From: Bradyrhizobium paxllaeri
Lineage (GTDB): Bacteria > Pseudomonadota > Alphaproteobacteria > Rhizobiales > Xanthobacteraceae
Length of the DNA stretch: 64,000 nucleotides
Assembly (NCBI RefSeq): GCF_001693515.2
Contig: NZ_CP042968.1
Span: forward strand, 372,001 to 436,000
Direction of reading: 5' to 3'
In this document: in pieces, positions 49,976 through 52,182 of the stretch
How positions within the stretch are numbered: the stretch's first letter is position 1
How the letters are laid out: every line of letters starts with the position of its first letter
The notes under the pieces: model-generated
Databases searched by the model: none
Seen by the model: the letters and a program-made list of their open reading frames with translations, nothing else
Told to the model about the DNA's origin: nothing
Made by a program: the position numbers and the translations under genes

Positions 49976-50917
49976 GTGTCACAGAAAACGCGTAAAAAGA
50001 GTGCTTCCAAGAACGTTAAAAAAGCCGCTCCGGCCAGCCGCAGCGCAACCAAGGGCCGTGCCAAGGCGTCCGTGAAGGATGCCAGGAAGGTTGCGGCCAC
50101 AAAGTCCTCAAAGAAAAGAAGCGCGATGCCAGAAAAGACTGCCAAGACCGCCGCGAAAGCGACGTCGAAGACCAATGCCCCGAAAGTTGCTGCCAAGGCT
50201 CCCGCAAAGACCCCTGTGAAGGCCGCGCCTCCGAAGGCTGCCGTTGCGCCGAAGGCTGCCGCCCACAAGCCGGCCGCTGCGGCCGCGCCGCGCGTCGAGG
50301 AACCGAAGAAGGTCGTGACCCAGCGTCAGGGCTTCAAGGCCAATGAATTCGTGGTCTATCCGGCTCACGGCGTCGGCCAGATCCTGGCCATCGAGGAGCA
50401 GGAGATCGCGGGCGCCAAGCTCGAGCTGTTCGTGATCAATTTCATGAAGGACAAGATGACGCTCCGCGTGCCGACCGCCAAGGTCGCCAATGTCGGCATG
50501 CGCAAGCTGTCCGAGCCGGCGCTGGTCAAGAAGGCGCTGGAGACGCTGAAGGGCCGCGCGCGCGTCAAGCGCACCATGTGGTCGCGCCGGGCGCAGGAAT
50601 ACGAAGCGAAGATCAATTCGGGCGACATCGTCGCGATCGCCGAAGTGGTCCGCGACCTCTACCGTTCGGAATCGCAGCCCGAGCAGTCCTACTCCGAACG
50701 CCAGCTCTATGAAGCGGCGCTCGACCGCCTGTCGCGCGAAATCGCGGTCGTCCAGCATTCGACCGAGACCGAAGCGGTCAAGGAAATCGAAAGCCAGCTC
50801 GCCAAGAGCCCGCGCCGCGGCGCCAAGGCCGAGGCGACCGAGGCTGACGGCGAAGCCGACGAGGCGGATGTCGACGCCGATGGCGACGATGCTGCGGTGG
50901 CGGACGAAGCCGCCTGA
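49976..50917 (+). CDS. CarD-family transcription regulator with basic N-terminal tail
   Basis: A 313-residue protein if the GTG at 49976 is used; an ATG at 50126 would give 263 residues. Residues 1-105 are Lys/Ala/Pro-rich repeats like eukaryotic histone H1 tails (KAAPASRSATKGRAKASVKD). The CarD_CdnL/TRCF RNA polymerase-binding domain starts at about 115 (GFKANEFVVYPAHGVGQILA) and continues through LFVINFMKDKMTLRVPTAKV; a helical DNA-binding part with RTMWSRRAQEYEAKINSGD follows, and the end is acidic. CarD stabilises open promoter complexes. A strong terminator follows after 22 bases. Confidence 0.9.
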   Translation: MSQKTRKKSASKNVKKAAPASRSATKGRAKASVKDARKVAATKSSKKRSAMPEKTAKTAAKATSKTNAPKVAAKAPAKTPVKAAPPKAAVAPKAAAHKPAAAAAPRVEEPKKVVTQRQGFKANEFVVYPAHGVGQILAIEEQEIAGAKLELFVINFMKDKMTLRVPTAKVANVGMRKLSEPALVKKALETLKGRARVKRTMWSRRAQEYEAKINSGDIVAIAEVVRDLYRSESQPEQSYSERQLYEAALDRLSREIAVVQHSTETEAVKEIESQLAKSPRRGAKAEATEADGEADEADVDADGDDAAVADEAA

Positions 50918-50939
50918 AAGAATCGCGAGGACTGAAACG

Positions 50940-50967
50940 AAAAGCCCGGTCGCAAGACCGGGCTTTT
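50940..50967 (+). terminator. Rho-independent terminator of the carD gene
   Basis: AAAAGCCCGGTC (50940-50951), loop GCAA, GACCGGGCTTTT (50956-50967) with one further T. It sits directly upstream of a group II intron whose 5' end begins four bases later. Confidence 0.92.
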
Positions 50968-50971
50968 TGTT

Positions 50972-51618
50972 GTGCGCCGAGCATGATCGGCAGCTTGGAG
51001 GTGAAAGTCCTCTATCCAGCCTGATGACGGCGAAGGATTAGCGAAGCGCAAGGGCGTCATCGTGAGGTGGGGTCTGAAGGAAGCGTGGAGCAAATCTGCG
51101 GCCGGATGGACAAAAACCGGATAACGAGGCCTACCCAGCCGGACGAGCGGGCAACTGATCGCGAAGTCCATAGTCATCAAGGGCTGGGGTGGTAAATCCG
51201 GCGGACGTGCAGGGAAGGCGGTCGATCTTACCTCGGGAGATCTCCGTCGTGTCCGGGACACCGGACTGAGCGGGTCGCAAGGCTCGTGATCGCGGCGGAG
51301 AAGTCAGCAGACGGCGTAGTAGGTGGAACGAGTTTCGCTGAAGGCCTGAACGCTGGAAAGACGCTTGGATGTGGAAATCTCGGGCTTGCCATGCGGCAGA
51401 AAATCCAGGTCACTGGCCTTCGGAGCAGCGGGAAAGGGTGAAGCCCGGACGGCGCCGTTCAAAGGGACCGAAGCCAGCACGTAGAAGTCCACTACCAGAG
51501 CCTCTGGCACGGACGCAAAACAAACCGTCTGTGCTTAATCCGGCGAACCGCCGTATACGAACCCGTATGTACGGTGGTGTGGGAGGGGAGGAGTCGCGAG
51601 ACTCCCCCCTATCCCGAT
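50972..51618 (+). mobile_element. Group II intron, class C type, reverse transcriptase deleted
   Basis: A self-splicing ribozyme element of about 647 nt. It opens with GTGCG (50972-50976), followed by domain I text including GGAGGTGAAAGTCCTCTA. Domain V is complete at 51548-51577: CCGCCGTATACG pairs with CGTATGTACGGTGG, loop AACC, two-base bulge GT, and CGC at the catalytic triad, as in class C introns. Domain VI follows at about 51579-51616, a long hairpin with loop GCGA and a probable bulged branch-point A in CCCCTATCCC. The 3' boundary is inferred. Only a frameshifted stub of the encoded maturase is seen near 51390-51480 (MRQKIQVTGL, then KGEARTAPFKGTEAST after a one-base shift). The place just after an intrinsic terminator is the preferred target of class C introns. 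Confidence 0.82.
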
Positions 51619-51801
51619 TGGCGCTTGCTGTTTGGTGCTTGCGCGAACGGAAGATCTCGAGCGCGCTGCAGGCGCAGCAAGGACGCGACGGTTCCGGTTC
51701 CATTCCTTGGCGCGGAAACGGCCAGTTTTCGACCTCTTGTGACCCGAATCGCGGGAGATTGTCCCGGCTGCTACTTCCAGATTTACCGCAAGGGGGATTC
51801 G

Positions 51802-52182
51802 ATGAAAGGGCAGCTACAGTCCATCTGCGTCGCCGTTCTCATCGCGGCTTTCCTGGCCATGCTTGTTCCACTGAGCGCGCCGGCCGCGCAGGTCAGGCAG
51901 TGCAGCGCCGCCGTGCCCAAATCGGCGAAAGGGCATTGGTCCTGGCGCATGATCGACGGCCGTAAATGCTGGTACTCCGGCAAGGCCGTGATCCCGCGGT
52001 CAGCTTTGCGCTGGCCCGCTGCGGCGCCGGCACCGGTGCAGGCCAAGGCCGAAACGGCACCAAAGGTCACCGTCAGCGCCGCCGCGGAGAAGCGCAGCGA
52101 TCCCATGGAGGCGCAGGCGCAGATGACTGACGATGCCGATAGCTTCGAATCGCGGTGGCAATTGCGCGTCGTTTCGAGGTAG
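51802..52182 (+). CDS. Small exported protein of unknown function
   Basis: A 126-residue protein with a signal peptide (MKGQLQSICVAVLIAAFLAM, cleaved near APAAQ) and ribosome site AAGGGGG just upstream, which sets the start at 51802. The mature part has CSAAVPKSAKGHWSWRMIDG and RKCWYSGKAVIPRSALRW, a Cys/Trp motif I have seen in many Bradyrhizobium hypothetical proteins, then an Ala/Lys-rich linker and a Ser/Glu end. Function unknown. Confidence 0.75.
   Translation: MKGQLQSICVAVLIAAFLAMLVPLSAPAAQVRQCSAAVPKSAKGHWSWRMIDGRKCWYSGKAVIPRSALRWPAAAPAPVQAKAETAPKVTVSAAAEKRSDPMEAQAQMTDDADSFESRWQLRVVSR

Follow-up and report, generated by a model that had tools for sequence, protein, structure and literature searches.

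The window (the whole stretch of 64,000 nt from Bradyrhizobium paxllaeri that was analysed; its genome is termed G000 here, and other G numbers denote the genomes of relatives) contains a carD-family gene, an intrinsic terminator and, directly behind the terminator, a group II intron from which most of the reverse transcriptase (RT) gene is missing. The features of the locus are as follows:

49976..50917, + strand: carD-family gene upstream of the intron, a host gene outside it (PF02559, 1.5e-13; PF21095, 2.2e-25; start codon at 49976 taken from the ORF listing)
50943..50971, + strand: terminator hairpin (9-bp stem, GCAA loop) with its TTTTTGTT tail, the 5' exon and target site (sequence, fold)
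50972..51618, + strand: whole ORF-less class C group II intron (Rfam, empty sites)
50977..51236, + strand: domain I (DI; consensus fold of seven ORF-less copies)
51109..51116, + strand: candidate EBS1 GACAAAAA, able to pair with TTTTTGTT in the 5' exon, one of the pairs being G-U (read from the sequence)
51237..51305, + strand: domain II (DII; consensus fold of seven ORF-less copies)
51313..51346, + strand: domain III (DIII) with a motif confined to ORF-less copies (consensus fold, motif comparison)
51351..51545, + strand: domain IV (DIV), in which DIVa is kept and the RT gene deleted (alignment, consensus fold, covariation)
51391..51393, + strand: remnant of the RT start codon (alignment to ORF-bearing introns)
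51405..51416, + strand: DIVa hairpin CCAG-GTCA-CTGG, with a loop of 4 nt rather than 6 and the frame broken (sequences, single folds)
51507..51534, + strand: hairpin where the RT gene was lost (consensus fold, single folds, covariation)
51547..51578, + strand: domain V (DV; Rfam, consensus fold, shuffle test)
51580..51616, + strand: domain VI (DVI) with the bulged branch-point candidate A51611 (consensus fold, shuffle test)

Rfam models and empty-site comparison together identify 50972-51618 as a complete group II ribozyme of 647 nt on the + strand. Three models match on that strand, namely RF02001 at 51056-51227 (127 bits), RF01998 at 51268-51346 (49 bits) and, for DV/DVI, RF00029 at 51546-51618, the last with 40.1 bits barely clearing its gathering score of 40; this was the covariance check that the first-pass annotation had proposed. 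All three domains are likewise recognised in six of the seven full-length ORF-less copies described below, the exception being the G123 copy, whose DV-DVI falls below the RF00029 threshold. The consensus fold of the seven copies contains all six domains, DV among them, with an A bulging from DVI, and DV plus DVI of the window intron fold at -43.2 kcal/mol (z -5.0), a value that none of 200 shuffles equalled. DV and DVI are thus intact, as had been claimed, whereas the description of DV as perfectly paired does not hold, a 2-nt bulge being present here and in the other copies. The 5' end GTGCG and the probable branch point were read correctly, the latter being the bulged A at 51611, the eighth base from the 3' end, and the boundaries 50972-51618 proved exact, as in both G001 and G024 the two flanks of an empty carD site were found abutting at 50971|51619, with the junction T common to both flanks. 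We conclude that the element is a genuine and complete group II intron of class C type, and that its insertion was precise.

The insertion point lies 54 bases 3' of the carD stop codon, directly after the hairpin and TTTTTGTT; the intron had been placed four bases past the T-tract, but in fact begins three bases (GTT) after the T5 run. A terminator pattern scan of 50700-51900 listed none, since its rule requires five T after the stem and these can here be absorbed into the stem, and the hairpin was instead read from the sequence and folded. Neither a regular-expression search for EBS1-IBS1 pairing (nothing found) nor a covariation analysis of 39 insertion sites in seven registers (none clearly above shuffles; in the best, 84 of 500 shuffles reached the observed value) picked out the pairing, and because of the latter result the EBS1 assignment is given as a candidate. 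Given its position behind the carD terminator, the intron could conceivably have been co-opted to regulate the 3' end of carD. We regard this as highly improbable, as terminators are the general target of the intron family, no promoter-like site was found in 50700-51900, and the intron is present at this site in none of 24 same-genus relatives, in 23 of which the carD match reaches to within 3 bases of the insertion point. These matches extend at most 11 bases into the intron (that of G017 ends earlier), and the window genome is the sole carrier at this site within the sample of 24 other same-genus genomes. The location of the window intron matches the insertion habit of its family, evident at all seven full copies and described for class C introns generally (PMC4424553), and the analysis gave no support to the earlier suggestion of an action on read-through transcripts of carD or to a part in carD expression.

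The first-pass annotation described the maturase as a frameshifted stub, and alignment with ORF-bearing introns bears this out: the window copy retains some 30 codons following the former ATG (51391) together with the region of the former stop, the stretch between them is missing and the remaining frame is broken. Measured ORF-bearing relatives are 1876-1882 nt long in nine of 11 cases (those of G104 and G119 are shorter), and seven of the 11 have an open frame of 465-466 codons; relative to the G154 intron, the net loss in the window copy is 1.23 kb. A Pfam search of the open frame 51369-51962, which runs through the maturase remnant, matched no family. The RT of the ORF-bearing G154 intron contains both RT and maturase domains (Pfam) and is closest in sequence to the GsI-IIC RT (6ar1, 2e-140), which, together with the terminator habit, is the basis on which we assign the intron to class C, in agreement with the earlier reading.

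Seven full-length ORF-less copies of 643-648 nt were found in six Bradyrhizobium genomes (G000, G019 with two, G123, G055, G181 and G247), so that each carrier genome holds few, one or two. They occupy seven different terminators and their flanks all differ, and every 5' exon comprises a terminal hairpin with 4 to 7 T among its last ten bases. A second empty site was found for one of the G019 copies (G019a), whose insertion site is unoccupied in G023; with two empty sites examined, vertical inheritance and copying inside larger DNA may account for some of the locations. The whole intron was searched against 195 genomes of the genus and its DIV-DVI part against 265. Scoring in these genus-wide searches was limited to two candidates per genome, which makes the family counts lower bounds; a repeat search of the carriers scored either 40 candidates or all of them. 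Outside Bradyrhizobium, no contiguous ORF-less match was found in 198 family-level or 397 order-level genomes with two or three candidates scored per genome, both draws containing some Bradyrhizobium. A pattern match in Fibrivirga (L109), for which an Rfam match was absent, was taken as chance.

Incomplete ORF-less copies were also found in G253, G245, G018 and G044, those of G018 and G044 being rearranged. The G253 copy (L036, C2:369605-369900, on plasmid pCB82_1 of Bradyrhizobium sp. CB82) is 90% identical and starts only at position 350 of the intron; a separate gene with a maturase domain lies immediately upstream of it, and the genome, with 25 GIIM matches overall, is rich in group II introns. 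The G245 copy (C81:21079-27884) is apparently split, 6.4 kb separating positions 1-266 from positions 524-647, and the first of these pieces lies behind a terminator-like hairpin of its own. In G044 (C29:18709-19405) intron positions 5-265 and 270-586 adjoin on opposite strands, giving an inverted, rearranged copy of ORF-less type. The window genome itself contains a 129-base piece that is 75% identical to the intron start (L035, C1:5254498-5254626), the remains of the 5' end of another class C relative.

Phylogenetic analysis of positions 317-647 (DIII-DVI) places the seven full copies in one clade (UFBoot 98), divided into subfamily A (G000, G019a, G123; support 100) and subfamily B (G055, G181, G019b, G247; support 96). 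A DIII motif is present in all eight ORF-less copies compared, G253 included, and in none of 15 ORF-bearing introns. The loop of the small DIVa hairpin is similarly diagnostic, measuring 4 nt in the eight ORF-less copies, whereas 6 nt separate the stem triplets of the 15 ORF-bearing introns, one of which (G110) has lost a stem pair; the stem reads CCAG/CTGG in A and CCGG/CCGG in B. With this loss of 2 nt from the loop the remnant frame is broken, yet the hairpin is preserved. The hairpin was read from the sequences and single folds (by eye for G176 and G147), the automatic alignment having not predicted it. On these grounds the DIII-DVI part of the ORF-less copies has one origin.

The 5' part may have a different history. 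A single ORF-less clade was rejected for positions 1-316 (AU 0.024) and 1-350 (AU 0.021), but not for 1-272 (AU 0.263), and a separate clade of subfamily B alone was borderline (AU 0.051 for 1-272, 0.055 for 1-350). The first 100 bases of the G055 copy are 99% like those of the ORF-bearing G154 and G193 introns and 93% like those of its sisters G181 and G019b. This suggests that 5' sequence of the ORF-less copies was exchanged with ORF-bearing introns, which we put forward as a suggestion because the conflicting signal sits mainly in DII. Rows left out were G253 and three partial 5' ends for the 317-647 and 1-316 analysis, and the distant d_ rows, FL_G119 and x_G004 for 1-272 and 1-350, with p_G123, p_G058 and p_G058b also left out for 1-350; an earlier set of trees was weakly supported and no conclusion rests on it. 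The same rejections (1-316 and 1-350), and the strong divergence of A from B in DIV (35-54% of sites), would be expected if two separate ORF losses had founded the two subfamilies, each afterwards moving in trans. We think this improbable, as the DIII motif and the 2-nt loop loss are common to both and the DIII-DVI clade has a support of 98.

Sequence change within the family is distributed very unevenly between the domains. Subfamilies A and B differ at 54% of sites in the 3' DIV spacer, 35% in DIVa and 27% in DII, and at 9.7% in DI, 6.8% in DVI, 4.9% in DV and 4.2% in DIII. Across 22 ORF-less and ORF-bearing introns, 93.3% of DIVa cells are paired, against 85.5% (sd 0.9) after shuffling and 35-48% in slid controls, over which the structures are favoured because they were derived from these same alignments; 42 double-change cells (17.1 in shuffles) occur in the same alignment, with double changes in 14 of 24 pairs. 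Within the seven ORF-less copies 96.9% are paired (93.2% shuffled) and double changes affect 30 of 188 pairs, further pair types not exceeding shuffles (120/500). The hairpin that replaces the lost ORF is formed in both subfamilies from different sequences, and its helix 25 has double changes in three of six pairs. The ORF-less introns are, on this comparative evidence, still under RNA constraint, with DIVa pairing kept by compensatory changes and a core that varies far less than the DIV spacer.

These patterns bear on whether the copies are relics that inserted as ORF-bearing introns and each lost the ORF later in place, being now immobile and perhaps still splicing or perhaps decaying. Several of the copies are indeed incomplete (G253, G245, G018, G044), a class C RT is not visible in some carriers, and a 2015 review regards IEP-less bacterial introns as splicing-only (PMC4424553). 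Nevertheless, losses in place would have to have struck the same positions repeatedly to leave seven sites with one DIII-DVI clade, one DIII motif and one shortened DIVa loop, and the core is conserved whereas the spacer drifts, so that we consider the relic explanation unlikely, if less so than two separate losses.

We judge it likely, instead, that the window intron is one copy of a non-autonomous class C (IIC) Bradyrhizobium lineage that class C RTs mobilise in trans. As far as sequence can establish, the lineage has a complete ribozyme, precise insertion, one DIII-DVI origin, seven different sites and a conserved and compensated RNA structure; splicing, RT binding and movement in trans of the ORF-less introns we infer from these properties. 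The original suggestion that such an intron could move with a maturase encoded elsewhere thereby gains comparative support from sister copies at different terminators, the shared ORF loss and the conserved core and DIVa. In the mechanism we propose, an ancestral intron of about 1.88 kb would have lost some 1.2 kb net from domain IV, including most of the RT gene, in a deletion that spared the ribozyme together with the 3' end and the DIVa region. Read-through transcription would yield intron RNA, which would fold and be bound, probably via DIVa, by a class C RT from another intron that assists splicing; the resulting RNP would reverse-splice behind a terminator hairpin in single-stranded form, after which the inserted intron RNA would be copied into DNA by the RT.

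A full-length RT-bearing relative had been named as something to look for in the same genome, and one is present. Two group II RTs are intact in G000, one of which (L034, near C1:5.31 Mb, 463 aa) has 61% identity to the G154 class C RT and is the candidate driver; its intron is 76% identical to the window intron over positions 1-352 and 91% over 573-647. The other (L131, 466 aa) was set aside as a class C helper, being about 34% identical to class C RTs and hence of another class. The distance of the resident RT (61% identity to the RT of the closer ORF-bearing introns) is a point against the trans model, as are the low copy numbers, the sub-threshold DV of the G123 copy and the failure to find EBS1-IBS1 covariation over the 39 sites. 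Elsewhere the picture is mixed: in G123 an ORF-bearing relative is multicopy, with its 3' end on six contigs and the RT C-terminus encoded on the three that were read, whilst in G247 a class C RT is present but broken. G019 has three intact RTs and G181 has one, all of which belong to other classes, as their identity to class C RTs is 33-35%. No GIIM match was found in G055, and no class C RT in the carrier genomes G019 and G055, a result that argues against a simple model with a resident helper unless that helper has since been lost. Many draft contig ends in G123 and G058 fall inside multicopy ORF-bearing introns, and because the contigs break there, the active RT introns can scarcely be recognised as genes in the two assemblies.

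The closest precedent, and a direct model for the proposed mechanism, is TeI3 of Thermosynechococcus elongatus, mobilised by TeI4 IEPs, in a genome with 17 ORF-less introns that derive from one deletion, have covarying DIVa loops and were demonstrated to be mobilised in trans (PMC2882425). As in TeI3, one ancestral deletion took most of the ORF from DIV and left N- and C-terminal remnants, a small DIVa change broke the remnant frame, DIVa covaries and ORF-less copies are found at many sites (PMC2882425). The two systems differ in that TeI3 is a CL/IIB1 intron of one genome (25 intact copies) in which trans mobility was shown (PMC2882425), whereas the Bradyrhizobium family is class C, targets terminators, has one or two copies per genome in at least six genomes and is a candidate for such mobility. 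DIVa is remarked upon as the RT-docking site of subgroup IIA introns (PMC2882425), and by analogy it would serve as such in class C introns too. With the ORF-bearing class C introns GsI-IIC and B.h.I1 the window copy shares insertion after intrinsic terminators (PMC4424553), but unlike them it is without an RT gene, and with ORF-less bacterial group II introns generally it shares complete domains and the lack of an IEP (PMC4424553, PMC8919778).

The review describes IEP-less bacterial group II introns as rare, with retromobility lost, and their non-mobile derivatives as seemingly short-lived (PMC4424553), and a genome survey counted 888 of 13,041 introns without IEP, Bradyrhizobium being unnamed in its main text (PMC8919778). 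The parts of these two sources drawn on here describe no class C ORF-less lineage traced across species and sites, and our literature search recognised no description of an ORF-less class C mobile family, although some likely sources lie outside that search and novelty is accordingly provisional. In contrast to the review (PMC4424553), the present family points to a non-autonomous class C lineage that endures and extends across species. More tentatively, and with rather less confidence than we place in movement in trans as such, we can envisage a SINE-like lineage that has persisted without its own RT for long enough to divide into A and B (DIV distance 0.35-0.54) and to spread between Bradyrhizobium species, that was served by RTs which other class C introns encode (61% identity here), that acquired DI-DII through recombination or template switching with ORF-bearing introns, and whose RT-docking RNA has evolved free of coding constraint, the DIVa hairpin kept and the frame lost. 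Since the broken frame uncouples RNA constraint from protein constraint in DIVa, the family can serve as a natural experiment for learning which parts of an intron RNA are needed if another intron's RT is to carry it, and it bears on the possible origin of shared RT or splicing apparatus.

Finally, several distant class C introns (L002, L031, L032, L042 and L120, and also L034) have short CCGC/GCGG hairpins upstream, ending TTCGTT, TTCGTC or TTTAGTC, in place of T-rich terminators; these hairpins perhaps represent another target type.
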